Origin: Akkermansiaceae bacterium
GTDB lineage: Bacteria > Verrucomicrobiota > Verrucomicrobiia > Verrucomicrobiales > Akkermansiaceae
Assembly: GCA_013041925.1 (NCBI GenBank)
Contig: JABDRB010000007.1
Span: 1 to 61,173, forward strand
Direction: 5' to 3'
DNA: 61,173 nucleotides
Below the pieces are notes generated by a model. The model had not been told where the DNA came from, did not search any database, and saw nothing but the letters and a program-made list of their open reading frames with translations. The translations under genes and the position numbers were made by a program. Below, one piece after another: positions 6,271 to 31,561 of this stretch. The first letter of the stretch is position 1. Each line of letters starts with the position of its first letter.

Positions 6271-8991
6271 TTAGGGTTTAAGCGTGGTGTTGGGTTGGAG
6301 TGTCCGGCGGAGATCTTCGAGAGCTCGGGTGCGGCCTCGGATATCTTGTTCTTTTTGGATCATGCGCATGACTTTGAGCATGAATTCAAAATCTTGGTCT
6401 TCTTGTGATCCACCACCGCCGCCGCCTCCACCGCCTCCACCGCCGCCATTTTTCTTATCGCCCTCGAGTTGCTTTGCCCATTTTCTGAGTTGGTCAGCCC
6501 ATCGTTTGGACTGGGAGATGGAGGTGAATGAGGCATTTCCAGAGACGTGGAGGGAGAGTTTTTCCAGTGCTTCATCGATTTTTGATGACCGCATGGCGTC
6601 GACAAGTTTTTGGTGTTCTTCTTTCTGGGTTCGGGCGTAGTAGTGGGCGAGGTCTTCTTGGATCCACCGGACGTCTGCAGCGGTTTGGCGTTGTTGATCG
6701 TAGGAGGCTTTGATGGAGCGTTGCTCGACGGGATCGAGATCGCTGAACTCACTGCCGATGACTTTGTTGATGATATCGATGAATGAGGATGCGATACCTT
6801 CCTCTTCCGTTGCGGCGCGTTTGAGGCGATTGACGAATGTGCTGGCTTCGAAGTTTTGGTTCGCCTCGTTGGCGTCCTTGAGTGCCTGTTGCATTTTTTT
6901 GATCGCCTTTTTTTGTTCTTCGATGGCGTCTTTGAGATCTTGTTCTGATTTTTTCGGGGTATTGCGTTGGCTTTGTGCGTCCTGGAGTTTTTGTTCTACC
7001 TTGGGGATGTCAGTCTGGGAGAGTTCCTTCATCGCTTGAAGGGCTTTGGACATTTTCTGGAGGGCTTCTTTATCAATCTCGCCGTTGCGGACGGCGTCCT
7101 TGAAGAGTTTCTCCATTTTCTGGGTGAGTTCCTGCAAGCGTTCTTTGTTGTCACGTTCGGCATCTTGCTGGGCTTGGAGTTTTTTCTTACCGGCTTCGCT
7201 CTGGAGGTTTTTGTCTTTTTTGTTGTCTAGACGTTGGTTTTCATCATTGAGGTTTTGCTCCTTGCGTGCGATATCTTCGAGTTCACCAATGGCGCGGTCG
7301 AACTCGTTTTTGAGCACCTGAGCGTGTTCGTCACGGGTGAGGATGTAGATGACGATGGGTTCTGAATAAATGCGACCCCGACCTGGTTTGTAATCCTCGG
7401 TCCATGAGCGGAGATTGAGTTTTTGCGGCTTGATGGAGAGGTTGGCGGGAGAGAATGAGAAGGGTTTGTTGAGGGTCGTGCGGGTTGACCCGCCTTGATC
7501 GAGAGTGAGTTCGCCTTTGGCGGGGGTTTCACCGGTGGGTTTGGTGAATTCTCCCTGCCATGAGATGCCGCAGGCTTTGAGGCCGTAGTCATCTTCGGCG
7601 AGGACTTCGAAGTCGATTGTTTCCTCTGCGAGCATGATGTGTTGGCGTTCGATTCCTTGGATGTAGGTTGAGGGAAGCTGATCTTGGGTGCTTTCCACGC
7701 GGAGTTTCAGGGGTGTATCTGCCTTGAGTCCGTAGACGTCGACCCATTGCATGGGAATGATGACGGAGTTTGTGGTGATGGTGATGGGGGGGGTGGTGAT
7801 TTTTCTGCCATCTATTTTGAGGCTGATTTTCTGAGGTTGGATTGCGGGTTGGGAGGTATCTTCCGGTTGGTTTTTCTGAGATTCGGGTGTGTCCTGCTCA
7901 GATGTTTCTAGGGGGGGGAGATCCGCATCGGTTTGCTTGGGGAGGGCTAAGACCTCGGCCGTGGCGGATGAGAGGGCGCGGCTGGCGGTGGCTTGGATTT
8001 TGATATCGCTTCCTTCGAGCACGGTGATGTAGCCGGAGCGCAGGTTGGCATTGATATCGGGGCGTTCCAAGTAGGCGGGGAGTGTGACCGCAGCGCGGAT
8101 ATTTTCGAGGGCGGGGCGGATGACGGGTTCAAAGGGGAGGCTGTGGATGGCGTCGTCTGCCTCGATGTGGAGGTTGTCTTGGGCGCGTTGGCCAGGGAAT
8201 GTGAAGCTGTAGCCGCCGTTGATGAGCTTGGCTTCCAGCCATGCGCTGTCACCGTAGCGGGCGCGTGCCTTTGAGGGGTGGCGGTGGGTATCTGTGGCGA
8301 GTGGGATGGTGAGGCTGAATGACTCGCCGTAGGGGATGTGGTGTGGGGTGTTGATTTGGGAGAGGTCGAGCTGGGTGAAGGTGTATCGGTTGGTTTCGGA
8401 GAGGGGCATGATCCAACGTTTGAGGGCATTGATGCTGGCTTCGGGCACGCTGATGATGGAGCCGACGGCGATGATAAAGAGCAGCATGACGGCGAGGGAG
8501 CCTTTGCGGTGGCGGGCGGCAGGGAGTGCTTGGCCGAGATCGCGGCCAGCCGCATCGGCAGCAACGGTGCGCATGGCTGCGGCACGGAGTGCGGGGGAGA
8601 GGGTGTCGGTTGTTTCTGTTTGATCTTGGAGTTCGACTGCGCCGAGGAGTCGATCGCCTAGCTTGGGGAAGCGGCGCGAGATGAGGCGGGCGATTTGATT
8701 CTCACGGCGGTGGCCATAAACCCAGCGATGGATCCAGTAGGGGGCGAAGATGGCGAAGAGGGAGACGCCGACCACGAGGATGACGAGTCGCACGCTGGTG
8801 GGTGTTTCGATGAAGCGGTCGAGACCGAAGACGAGGAGAAAGGAGAACAGGAGGCCAAAGCAGCCGGCGAGGATGGCTTCGGCGATTTTGATTTGCCAGA
8901 GGCGCTTTTTAAATTGCTCGAGTTGTTCACGCAGCTCCTCTGGGATGGGGGTTTGGTGGTGGGGGAGTGGGTGAGGCTGTTTTTCGGACAT
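6271..8991 (-). CDS. DUF4175-like inner-membrane protein with coiled coil
   Basis: This 906-residue protein begins with two close membrane segments (about residues 36-58 and 66-88). A third segment follows near residues 165-190 (SLAVMLLFIIAVGSIISV). A long beta-rich periplasmic region comes next, including Ig-like stretches (DIKIQATASRALSSATAEVLAL and FEVLAEDDYGLKACGISWQGEF). A heptad-rich coiled coil extends from about residue 560 to 760, rich in KKLQAQQDAERDNKERLQEL-type sequence. A run of 13 glycines sits near residue 855, before a conserved-looking tail (FEFMLKVMRMIQKEQDIRGRTRALEDLRR). The arrangement fits proteins annotated DUF4175 in PVC bacteria, which usually sit with MoxR ATPase, DUF58 and VWA genes. 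Those partners are absent here. As the first gene of the operon it may anchor the exported proteins encoded downstream (inference). Confidence 0.8.
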   Translation of the reverse strand: MSEKQPHPLPHHQTPIPEELREQLEQFKKRLWQIKIAEAILAGCFGLLFSFLLVFGLDRFIETPTSVRLVILVVGVSLFAIFAPYWIHRWVYGHRRENQIARLISRRFPKLGDRLLGAVELQDQTETTDTLSPALRAAAMRTVAADAAGRDLGQALPAARHRKGSLAVMLLFIIAVGSIISVPEASINALKRWIMPLSETNRYTFTQLDLSQINTPHHIPYGESFSLTIPLATDTHRHPSKARARYGDSAWLEAKLINGGYSFTFPGQRAQDNLHIEADDAIHSLPFEPVIRPALENIRAAVTLPAYLERPDINANLRSGYITVLEGSDIKIQATASRALSSATAEVLALPKQTDADLPPLETSEQDTPESQKNQPEDTSQPAIQPQKISLKIDGRKITTPPITITTNSVIIPMQWVDVYGLKADTPLKLRVESTQDQLPSTYIQGIERQHIMLAEETIDFEVLAEDDYGLKACGISWQGEFTKPTGETPAKGELTLDQGGSTRTTLNKPFSFSPANLSIKPQKLNLRSWTEDYKPGRGRIYSEPIVIYILTRDEHAQVLKNEFDRAIGELEDIARKEQNLNDENQRLDNKKDKNLQSEAGKKKLQAQQDAERDNKERLQELTQKMEKLFKDAVRNGEIDKEALQKMSKALQAMKELSQTDIPKVEQKLQDAQSQRNTPKKSEQDLKDAIEEQKKAIKKMQQALKDANEANQNFEASTFVNRLKRAATEEEGIASSFIDIINKVIGSEFSDLDPVEQRSIKASYDQQRQTAADVRWIQEDLAHYYARTQKEEHQKLVDAMRSSKIDEALEKLSLHVSGNASFTSISQSKRWADQLRKWAKQLEGDKKNGGGGGGGGGGGGGSQEDQDFEFMLKVMRMIQKEQDIRGRTRALEDLRRTLQPNTTLKP

Positions 8992-28792: not shown

Positions 28793-29833
28793 GTGATCTC
28801 GACGCTCCGACTGCAAAATTTTCGATGCTTTGATGCGCTGGCACTGGAGTTTCCTGAGTCGGGAGCGGTGATGGTGGGGGCGAATGCGCAGGGGAAGACG
28901 TCTATCCTTGAGGCGGTCTGTGTGATGGTGCGGCTGCAGTCGCCTCGCAGCACACGGATGAGTCGGATGGTGAAAATGGATACTTCTGGCTTCGGTGTGG
29001 CGGGTCGGTGCTGGGATAACGATCTGCAGGTGCGTTACACTCCGCGCAAGGGGGTGACGATGAAGATGGGGGGAGAGCCGGTGGTCAAGCAGGGTGACTA
29101 TTTGCGGTCGGGTGGCCTGGTGGTGTGGATGGGGAATGATGACCTGCAGCTGGTGCGTGGCTCGGGCAGTGTGCGGAGGCGATACCTTGATTTTCTCGGG
29201 TGCCAGCTTGATCCGCTCTATCGTGATCATTTGAACCGATATACCCGTGTGCTCAAGGCGCGTAATTTACTCCTTAAAGACCGGACGCAGCGTGATGCTG
29301 AGATGGTGGTGTATAGTGATTTGTTAGTAAGACACGGTGAGTTTTTAACGGCGGCGCGGCGACGACTTGTCGGGATGCTTGAGCCGGAATCGGCGGCCTC
29401 TCAGGTGGCGGTGAGTGGTTGTGACGAGCGGGTTGGGATGCAGTATATTGCTGGGTCTGGCGATGATTTGGCCGCAAGTTTGGAGATGACACGCGAGCGC
29501 GAGCGTCGGCTCGGGCAGACGGTGGCTGGGCCGCATCGCGATGAGGTGCGGCTCACGATCAATGGCATGGTGGCGGCAGATTTTGCCAGTGAAGGTCAGC
29601 AGCGGACGATGGCACTATCGTTAAAGCTGGCGCAAGGTCAGTTGCTGCACCAAGAGGCGCATCGGCTGCCAGTTTATTTACTTGATGACATTTTTGGAGA
29701 GCTTGACCCCGATCGCAGGAACGCGTTGATGGCGGTTTTGCCGAAGAAGGCGCAGAAGCTGATTACCACCACGAACATCGACTGGATGCAGGACGAATTT
29801 TCCATGATCGAGATGGCGGATTTGCCTCGGTGA
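28793..29833 (+). CDS. recF: DNA replication and repair protein RecF
   Basis: This is a 346-residue SMC-like ATPase. It has ISTLRLQNFRCF at the N-terminus, Walker A GANAQGKTSILEA (about residues 29-41), the RecF block RGSGSVRRRYLDFLGCQLDPLY, GPHRDEV, the signature SEGQQRTMALSLKLAQ and Walker B YLLDDIFGELD. RecF loads RecA at gaps with RecO and RecR. It is not beside dnaA/dnaN/gyrB, the common RecF neighbourhood. The start is GTG 28793, giving MISTLRL; no ATG offers a similar N-terminus. Confidence 0.95.
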   Translation: MISTLRLQNFRCFDALALEFPESGAVMVGANAQGKTSILEAVCVMVRLQSPRSTRMSRMVKMDTSGFGVAGRCWDNDLQVRYTPRKGVTMKMGGEPVVKQGDYLRSGGLVVWMGNDDLQLVRGSGSVRRRYLDFLGCQLDPLYRDHLNRYTRVLKARNLLLKDRTQRDAEMVVYSDLLVRHGEFLTAARRRLVGMLEPESAASQVAVSGCDERVGMQYIAGSGDDLAASLEMTRERERRLGQTVAGPHRDEVRLTINGMVAADFASEGQQRTMALSLKLAQGQLLHQEAHRLPVYLLDDIFGELDPDRRNALMAVLPKKAQKLITTTNIDWMQDEFSMIEMADLPR

Positions 29834-29876: not shown

Positions 29877-30812
29877 TCAGCCCTCGTAGGATCGTCTGTG
29901 TTGACGTATTTTGAGTAACTCGGGGGTGAGCTCTGAAATGGTGGGGATGGTGACGGCGTTGATTTGATTGAGTGTCTTGCGATACCCTTCGGTGCCGCTG
30001 CCGCCGATCAGTAGCGCTAAGTTGTCGGGCAGGAGCTTACGGAGCCTGAGTAGCTCCGCATCCAGGTGGGGGTCGTCGGTGGGGTAAACGACACTGAGCA
30101 GGACGGCATCGGCGTCGGTTCTCAGAGCGGCACCCGCTATGTCGTCTGCGGGTAGAGACGGCCCGAGGTAGACGGTTTTCCATCCGGATTTTTTCGCCTG
30201 GCAAGCGCCGATGTAGGCGCCGAGCTCGTGAATCTGGCCTGCAGGCGTGGTGACGACCAAGACGGGTGCGTTTTCTTCCGTGGTAAAGGAGCGCACACTG
30301 GTGGCAAGGTATTGCTTGATGAAGCTCGTGGTGGCATGTTCACCGGCGCTGGTGAGTTCACCACTGTGCCAGTCGTTACCGGCTTGTTGGATGACTGGAA
30401 TAAGGACCCGTTCGAGCAGTCCGGAGTATCCAAGCGTGAGGCTTGCCTCATCAAATAGGGCCTCGAGGGTATCTTGATCGTAATTTCTGATGGCCGTGGC
30501 GGCCGCTTGGATGAATGAGCTGACCTGATCGGCGGCCTCGTCGACCTGTGGATGGGTTTCCGAGATGGTGATTCCTTTGATGAGTTCAGTGAGCTCGGCA
30601 TCGGGCAGCTTGGCGATGTGTCCGATCGTGTAGCCTTTTTGGGTGAGTTTTGAGAGCGTTTGGAGTCGAGAAATCTCGTCGTCGGTGTAGAGTCGGCGGT
30701 TGGTTTCGGTGCGCTGCGGGGTGACGGCACCGTAGCGTTTTTCCCACACGCGGATGACGTGGGCGCTTAAGCCGGTGAGAGTGGTGGTCGCTTTGATTCC
30801 GTGGGTATTCAT
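29877..30812 (-). CDS. carH: MerR-type B12-dependent photoreceptor repressor (CarH/LitR-like)
   Basis: The 311-residue protein has a MerR winged-helix domain (residues 1-75, HVIRVWEKRYGAVTPQRT), a B12-binding helical cap (about 95-175) and a Rossmann B12-binding domain (about 180-300). The light-sensing residues of CarH are all present. W148-H149 and E158-H159 form the Wx9EH motif with the adjacent upper-ligand His, and H195 in AGQIHELG matches the lower axial ligand. In CarH, adenosylcobalamin drives tetramer formation and repression in the dark, and light cleaves the Co-C bond and releases DNA. The divergent CIA30-family gene and the 11-bp repeat operator between them suggest autoregulation and control of that gene. 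The start ATG 30812 lies close to its likely promoter, so the 5' leader is very short. Confidence 0.88.
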   Translation of the reverse strand: MNTHGIKATTTLTGLSAHVIRVWEKRYGAVTPQRTETNRRLYTDDEISRLQTLSKLTQKGYTIGHIAKLPDAELTELIKGITISETHPQVDEAADQVSSFIQAAATAIRNYDQDTLEALFDEASLTLGYSGLLERVLIPVIQQAGNDWHSGELTSAGEHATTSFIKQYLATSVRSFTTEENAPVLVVTTPAGQIHELGAYIGACQAKKSGWKTVYLGPSLPADDIAGAALRTDADAVLLSVVYPTDDPHLDAELLRLRKLLPDNLALLIGGSGTEGYRKTLNQINAVTIPTISELTPELLKIRQHRRSYEG

Positions 30813-30822
30813 CGTTTGATTT

Positions 30823-30957
30823 TAGACAATATATAAACAGGGGGTGGGGTGCGCAAGGAGTTAGAGCATATTTATGACGGTATTGAATCGTGATCTCGTT
30901 CTCTAATATAAACATAATATAGACAAAAGGGGTTGACTTGAGTCAAAAATTAGACAA
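30823..30957. promoter_or_regulatory. Divergent promoters with 11-bp repeat operator for the CarH-like regulator
   Basis: Five copies of TARACA lie in this gap: 30823, 30834, 30909, 30920 and 30951. The first two and the next two are each spaced exactly 11 bp, as in known CarH operators. For the CIA30 gene, TTGAAT (30883-30888) and TATAAA (30907-30912) with an 18-nt spacer form a promoter whose -10 box overlaps the repeat at 30909. For the regulator, minus-strand TTGCGC (30856-30851) and TATATT (30833-30828) with a 17-nt spacer place the -10 box between the first two repeats. Both promoters would be occluded by bound repressor. Confidence 0.7.
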
Positions 30958-30982
30958 TGATGGGGGTAGAACTTATCCAGCC

Positions 30983-31561
30983 ATGAACCCTCTTTTAATC
31001 AATAGCCTACTTTTTCTGTTGGCCGCCAATCTCATTTCTCAAGCAGGCGAGCCACTGAACCGCCTGACACAAACGCTTGATGATTTCAAAAAGACCCGAG
31101 CGGCGGGCACTTGGATGAGTGTGAATGATGGGGTCATGGGTGGGATATCCCGCGGCGGCGCTGTCATCAGTAAACAGAAGAATCTGGTCTTTAAGGGGGA
31201 GATCTCCTTGGAAAACAATGGGGGTTTTTCCTCGATCCGGACACGTGGGGAAAAGCTGGATCTTTCGGCTTATGACGGGATTGAGGTCAACGTCAAAGGG
31301 GATGGGCGGATGTATTACCTGACGACGAGGTCGCATGGTCGGCGTATGCTGGCCTACTGGAGTCCGATTCAGCCGCCCAAGGGCGAATGGACCGTGATCC
31401 GTGTGCCCTTTGATTCATTTTACGCCACCTATTTTGGTAAAAAAATTCCTGCGCTGAGCTTGAACACTGGCAAGGTGAGCAGTTTGGGAGTGATGCTGTA
31501 TGATAAAAAGCCTGGAGCGTTTGCCATCGAATTTGAATCCATCAAAGTTTATAAGGAGTAG
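30983..31561 (+). CDS. CIA30-family exported protein, probably light-regulated
   Basis: From ATG 30983 the protein has 192 residues with a signal-like N-terminus (PLLINSLLFLLAANLISQAG). It shows the CIA30/NDUFAF1 fold: WMSVNDGVMGGISRGG near the start, a middle block FSSIRTRGEKLDLSAYDGIEVNVKGDG, then WTVIRVPFDSFYATYFG and a final VMLYDKKPGAFAIEFESIKVY. Eukaryotic members assist assembly of respiratory complex I. Bacterial members are mostly uncharacterised carbohydrate-binding-like proteins. A longer start (TTG 30938) is possible but adds no conserved sequence and lies within the operator region. Control by the divergent CarH-like repressor is inferred from the operator. Confidence 0.82.
   Translation: MNPLLINSLLFLLAANLISQAGEPLNRLTQTLDDFKKTRAAGTWMSVNDGVMGGISRGGAVISKQKNLVFKGEISLENNGGFSSIRTRGEKLDLSAYDGIEVNVKGDGRMYYLTTRSHGRRMLAYWSPIQPPKGEWTVIRVPFDSFYATYFGKKIPALSLNTGKVSSLGVMLYDKKPGAFAIEFESIKVYKE

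Follow-up and report, generated by a model that had tools for sequence, protein, structure and literature searches.

Class I LitR regulators, exemplified by CarH of Thermus thermophilus, Bacillus megaterium and Cystobacter, join a MerR domain to two B12 domains and carry a Wx9EH motif, a lower-ligand His and a His after the Trp of that motif. The papers considered here treat CarH mainly as a carotenoid-gene switch, the target of the class I proteins being a crt operon. According to the accessible part of PMC9304148, the CarH repeat reads nnnnTnnACAn and recurs in tandem at 11 bp, overlapping the -35 or -10 element; a site holds three repeats for T. thermophilus CarH (TtCarH) and four for B. 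megaterium CarH (BmCarH), and one or two full repeats with degenerate flanking ones can be enough. The same text states that Wx9EH contacts the adenosyl group, that an intact Wx9EH sets CarH apart from CarA, and that the lower axial ligand lies in a D/ExHx2G motif. The roles of the photosensory residues, including the His after the Trp as upper ligand of light-state TtCarH, are described in the accessible parts of PMC10442372 and PMC9304148.

We analysed a stretch of 61,173 nucleotides (the window) from an Akkermansiaceae bacterium, whose genome (G000; 3.28 Mb, 98% complete) gave a single match each for the carH protein and for the CIA30 profile when searched. The two genes are divergent and separated by a 170-bp gap (30813 to 30982; Table 1). 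An earlier note on this DNA had proposed a CarH-type photoreceptor that keeps every light-sensing residue, and this identity was borne out. The product has the domain order of the class I proteins, with MerR_1 matching at E 3.8e-16 and B12-binding_2 and B12-binding also above the Pfam cut-off, and Thermus CarH (5c8d) aligns with it at E 3.8e-32. In the alignment W148, H149, E158, H159 and H195 all fall where the note had placed them, and Wx9EH is intact. The NCBIfam TransRegCarH equivalog scored 134 bits, below a cut-off of 400 that belongs to one curated model and is not a biochemical feature. The recognition helix reads RVWEKRY, with K replacing R of the RxWERRY type.

An alignment of 46 CarH-like proteins (the window's and those of 45 loci) shows no variation in the W, E and H of Wx9EH or in the lower-ligand H (46/46), and the His after the Trp, H149 here, occurs in four, the window's among them. 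The lower-ligand motif of the window protein is QIHELG, which keeps H195 and the G and has Q where the published motif has D/E; this residue, two before the H, is Q in 32/46 and E in 14/46 of the proteins. In TtCarH, a salt bridge between R176 and D201 joins the dimer; the corresponding residues here are, by motif offset, I194 and S219, and the window protein may therefore assemble into a different oligomer. From its residues, the window CarH would be expected to bind B12 and sense the adenosyl group. A Cob_adeno_trans gene was found in G000 and in four same-genus genomes, and adenosylcobalamin can therefore probably be made from corrinoid.

Table 1. Genes and predicted regulatory features of the carH/CIA30 locus, and the unlinked FAS1 gene. 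Coordinates are those of the window unless a locus is named.
Feature	Position	Strand	Description
carH	29877-30812	-	311 aa; MerR_1 + B12-binding_2 (four-helix) + B12-binding (Rossmann), Pfam
CIA30-family gene	30983-31561	+	192 aa; Pfam CIA30, E 2.4e-39
Operator A (predicted)	30823-30839	+	TAGACA (30823) and TAAACA (30834), 11 bp apart; adjoins carH start codon
Operator B (predicted)	30909-30925	+	TAAACA (30909) and TAGACA (30920), 11 bp apart; 5' of putative CIA30 -35
Operator C (predicted)	30940-30956	+	degenerate GAGTCA (30940) and TAGACA (30951), 11 bp apart; inside putative CIA30 promoter
Putative CIA30 promoter	30933-30961	+	TTGACT-N17-AATGAT, sigma-70-like, overlapped by last repeat; 1 found, ~1 expected by chance
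Putative carH promoter	30828-30856	-	TTGCGC-N17-TATATT, by eye; -10 TATATT (30833-30828) overlaps operator A
FAS1 gene	L206:7965-8792 (G000:C4)		only one in genome by profile; two repeat pairs <=120 bp upstream

TARACA was found on the forward strand of the gap at the five positions that had been claimed (Table 1), and none was found on the reverse strand of 29877 to 31561. In sequence, the repeats fit the published TnnACA form at 11-bp spacing and, as in the class I CarH systems, overlap promoter elements, here putative ones. Of the proposed 11-bp repeat operator, the pairs and their spacing stood; it is not a single array, and consists instead of three two-repeat elements, two strict and one with a degenerate member, all pointing one way. 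Each site thus holds just two repeats, fewer than for TtCarH or BmCarH, which counts against a CarH circuit. The degenerate arrangement of operator C, GAGTCA-N5-TAGACA, also precedes CIA30 in the relative G154.

The repeat pairs in the gap are not due to chance. Two 11-bp pairs within 170 bp compare with a shuffle mean of 0.006, and two pairs arose in 0/2000 dinucleotide shuffles of the gap. The strict pattern YGTYTAN5YGTYTA has two matches in the 3.28-Mb genome, both inside this gap, with five for the reversed control, while the loose TnnACAN5TnnACA has 44 genome matches vs 32 for its control and is therefore unspecific by itself. The putative carH promoter was not among the results of a sigma-70-like promoter scan of the gap. 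TTGAC also stands before CIA30 in G189 and G197, and TTGCA in G154.

Conservation in relatives had been set beforehand as the test of the repeats, and they are kept at the carH/CIA30 promoters, both within the genus and on five contigs that are more distant (L125, L126, L130, L131 and L132). Two same-genus genomes, G189 and G197, came to notice through the operator pattern, which itself fetched loci L080 and L084. CIA30 and carH are divergent in G189, with a strict pair at either end, while in G197 carH and FAS1 share one direction and CIA30 the opposite one. In G154, CIA30 is opposed in direction by FAS1, carH, a TetR-like gene, ABC1 and an NAD-binding/DUF2867 gene; carH sits behind FAS1 there, and no pair was found directly upstream of it. 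The carH-proximal strict pair occurs in G000, G180, G189 and G197, and the CIA30-proximal one in G000 and G189 only, with one degenerate member in G154 and G197. G180, of the same genus, kept carH, but a profile search found no CIA30 or FAS1 in it, and CIA30 seems from the sequence to have been lost there along with FAS1. Read by eye, the G180 gap retains an apparent remnant of the beginning of CIA30, next to a TGTCTA/TGTCTT repeat (L034, ~7500-7600). At L033:9060-12479, carH is followed by TetR-like, ABC1 kinase-like and NAD-binding/DUF2867 genes, perhaps as one operon; TetR-like and ABC1 kinase-like genes also lie 3' of carH in G180 (L034).

CIA30 had been put forward as the target of the regulator, and the repeats at its promoter agree with this, but it is not the sole one: the unlinked FAS1 gene has the same operator. 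Among the same-genus genomes examined, five have the gene, and a pair stands at the FAS1 promoter in 5/5 of these, strict in G000, G189, G197 and G198 and with a degenerate first repeat in G154 (CGTCTA-N5-TGTCTA); in all five it sits just 3' of TTGAC. Of 99 CIA30 ORFs, 41 are fusions with FAS1 (35/92 with duplicates collapsed), and the fused gene adjoins carH in five cases, some with carotenoid or photolyase genes near. G197 has an extra CIA30-FAS1 fusion on a separate contig, its promoter lying beyond the contig end. The C-terminal ~90 residues of the G000 FAS1 protein lie outside its one Pfam match and have no Pfam match of their own; the last 90 residues match 37 ORFs (31 distinct), all of them CIA30-FAS1 fusions (e.g., L131:6401-7816), in a set that is not neutral, as its loci were chosen by CIA30 or FAS1. 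This C-terminal domain is absent from the remaining four FAS1 proteins of the genus (179-205 aa). We rejected a split-fusion reading, with CIA30 and FAS1 plus the C-terminal domain as halves of one protein, as only 1/5 same-genus FAS1 proteins has the domain. CIA30 and FAS1 probably act together.

We read the window locus, with a probability of roughly 0.8, as a CarH photoreceptor circuit that would keep carH, CIA30 and FAS1 repressed in darkness and, on illumination, release exported photoprotective proteins. This reading draws on the regulator class, the intact photosensory residues, the conservation of the repeats at three promoters, the fusion of CIA30 with FAS1 in relatives, and the cobalamin adenosyltransferase gene. 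In the dark, adenosylcobalamin-loaded CarH would bind the tandem 11-bp TnnACA repeats and block the promoters of carH, the divergent CIA30 and the unlinked FAS1; light would break the Co-C bond, CarH would release the DNA, and both exported proteins would then be made. B12 dependence, light dependence and repression by the window CarH are what we infer by analogy with described members. CarH would very probably switch on the adjoining CIA30 gene in the light, and CIA30 would then be, as the earlier note proposed, a new light-regulated function. CIA30 and FAS1, one chain in many relatives, may work jointly as surface or envelope proteins that guard the cell from light or singlet oxygen, most likely via adhesion or matrix formation; the adhesion role is speculative.

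The CIA30 protein is assigned by profile (135 bits vs a cut-off of 24, Pfam PF08547). The best fold matches of its predicted structure (pLDDT 85.3) are NDUFAF1, at E 3.5e-13, and a carbohydrate-binding module, CBM11, at E 9.6e-9. It shares the Pfam family and an NDUFAF1-like beta-sandwich fold with the complex I assembly factor NDUFAF1/CIA30; unlike NDUFAF1, it is probably exported, as predicted from a hydrophobic N-terminus seen by eye, and its gene adjoins that of a photoreceptor, so a role in complex I assembly appears unlikely. The carH-CIA30 pairs of relatives neighbour an amine-oxidase-type desaturase (labelled CrtN-like by us) and a GT2 gene in L131, a photolyase in L132, and DUF1365, CMAS, DUF2878 and DUF1295 genes in L130. 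These neighbours resemble the light genes of Pseudomonas class II LitR (photolyase, SDR, FAD oxidoreductase, UfaM) as given in the accessible parts of the sources; class II LitR is without one of the two B12 domains, and those parts mention no CIA30 or FAS1 target for it.

FAS1 proteins have been linked to photooxidative stress elsewhere. The FAS1 gene RSP_1409 of Rhodobacter sphaeroides rises under singlet oxygen (PMC7074977, accessible part), and fasciclin mediates flocculation under RpoE-ChrR in Azospirillum, tied to photooxidative stress, according to the accessible part of PMC10949492; the organism examined in that paper did not express its own fasciclin gene. A study of the light transcriptome of Mycobacterium kansasii tabulates two fasciclin genes among its results, in the part of PMC9861118 that is accessible. 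RSP_1409 and the Azospirillum brasilense fasciclin, to which we liken the G000 FAS1, are under RpoE/ChrR and not a B12 photoreceptor, and the accessible text on them does not mention a CIA30 partner. On the carH neighbours in relatives and these FAS1 precedents, the output would be photoprotection by exported surface proteins.

A bolder reading of that output is light-induced extracellular pigment handling by the CarH-controlled CIA30 and FAS1. FAS1 would bind a carotenoid chain, like algal AstaP, and the CBM11-like CIA30 would hold a sugar, that of glycosylated C30 carotenoids or a surface polysaccharide. In L131, an Akkermansiaceae contig, the CrtN-like desaturase gene, one for a glycosyltransferase and a homologue of the G000 CrtO-type acyltransferase gene lie downstream of the fusion gene and are read in its direction. 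The accessible part of PMC10147662 reports that a cyanobacterial homologue does not bind carotenoid, and because of this we keep the reading as a bold and unlikely one.

The window CarH might alternatively sense adenosylcobalamin supply, repressing CIA30 and FAS1 when the coenzyme is plentiful, with light incidental. Any adenosylcobalamin-dependent repressor reads both coenzyme and light, and with H149 in only 4/46 proteins a bis-His light state is no conserved demand; however, the adenosyl-contacting Wx9EH does not vary, and the desaturase, photolyase and DUF1365/CMAS genes near carH in some relatives point to light, making supply sensing quite improbable.

Support for the photoreceptor circuit also came from more distant genomes. 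A contig scan with the CIA30 alignment gave 80 loci among the matches listed (575 confirmed), 69 of them with more than 1.2 kb ahead of the CIA30 match. carH is divergent to CIA30 in 5/80 loci among the matches listed, the five contigs named above, all from Akkermansiaceae or Verrucomicrobia. With start codons set by us, a repeat pair stands at the carH start in 5/5, its first repeat 4-6 bases into the gap. Before CIA30 there are three tandem repeats in L131 and L132, two pairs in L125, repeats 22 bp apart in L126 and single repeats in L130, so that tandem pairs occur in 3/5 loci. The CIA30 ORF has a FAS1 stretch in all five (tblastn; Pfam for L131).

Within 250 bp upstream of carH, pairs were found at 8/38 loci of the order set, all antisense to carH, and at 33/49 loci of the class set vs 0.55 expected; in the latter an antisense pair is present at 33/33 pair-bearing loci and a sense pair as well at 2/49. 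From 384 genomes, 58 places were listed; 49 of them make up the class set, and the other nine are in genomes from within the order or closer still. The class set partly overlaps the order sample (e.g., G003, G021), and in two members, L269 and L290, matches begin late and the upstream is unreliable. The 45-locus set, which includes L080 and L084, has a pair at 15/45 vs 0.26 expected; these two loci, having been fetched by the operator pattern, are excluded from the counts of 38 and 5. Pooled over 43 loci (order set and CIA30-linked), 21 pairs lie at 11 bp and at most four at any other spacing from 4 to 30. FAS1 is divergent to carH in 7/49 class-set loci, six of the seven with a pair upstream of carH. 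A pair was found upstream of carH in 0/20 loci of family f4 of the order set; these loci (e.g., L056-L060, L066-L070) have an intact Wx9EH and no TnnACA pairs upstream, and their operator may differ. TnnACA pairs that are spaced at 11 bp and lie antisense to carH offer a sequence rule for listing CarH targets in these bacteria.

As a control, CIA30 loci unlinked to carH have a pair at 1/103 vs 0.54 expected (~98/104 CIA30 upstream stretches are distinct), and CIA30 as a general CarH target was rejected on this count. The sole such locus with a pair, TAGACA-N5-TTGACA, is in G132, a same-family genome with carH on another contig and a CIA30 52% identical to the window's. These counts bear on the view that the regulator governs its own gene alone and CIA30 is a divergent bystander. 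CIA30 is not beside carH in most genomes (it is so in 0/49 class-set loci, flanks ~1.5 kb), and G180 seems to have lost it. This view is nevertheless very unlikely, given that the CIA30 promoter has separate repeats within the genus and in the majority of the five named loci, and given the pair at the unlinked CIA30 of G132, and the repeats that FAS1, fused to CIA30 in many relatives, carries of its own.

MerR activators usually sit just downstream of the -35 element, at promoters with a typical -35/-10 spacing of 19-20 bp. Activation of CIA30 and FAS1 from between -35 and -10 in this classical manner, instead of repression, would suit the pairs just 3' of TTGAC in the five FAS1 promoters, but the CIA30 -35/-10 spacing is 17 bp and described CarH members are adenosylcobalamin-dependent dark repressors (PMC9304148, accessible part), so that we consider it highly improbable.

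The regulator is of a known kind, and the target set of CIA30 and FAS1 appears to be new and undescribed. In the open literature, outside which most subscription papers lie, no paper was found on CarH together with CIA30, on CIA30 with light and photolyase, or on CarH with Verrucomicrobia and photoreceptor; CarH with fasciclin returned papers that, by their titles, are unrelated. Nor did it yield a report of light control of a CIA30-type exported protein or a tested role for bacterial CIA30, which is recorded beside DUF4174 in mycobacteria (PMC10364804). The CarH repeat motif here marks the gene of the probably exported CIA30 protein and an unlinked FAS1 gene, and bacterial CIA30 gains a testable function in light protection.

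Of two other candidate targets in G000, the first was not supported and the second was rejected. At L053:94-6119 (G000:C25), an amine-oxidase-type desaturase, GT2, CrtO-type acyltransferase and photolyase lie in a row, which suggests a staphyloxanthin-like C30 carotenoid; the upstream gap of this cluster is without a pair, and the only pair in 12 kb lies inside an ORF. A gene that we labelled sigma-70-like (G000:C19) has a TAGACA-N5-TGTACA pair 151 bp away, probably by chance: 6/8 orthologues have no pair within 380 bp upstream, and where pairs occur they stand at -305 in G198, at -156 in the opposite orientation in G143, and at -167 in G000. On the other side of carH in the window, a putative RecF-like gene (28793-29833) is convergent with it across a 43-bp gap, and the apparent homologue of that gene in G154 lies ~7 kb away from carH.
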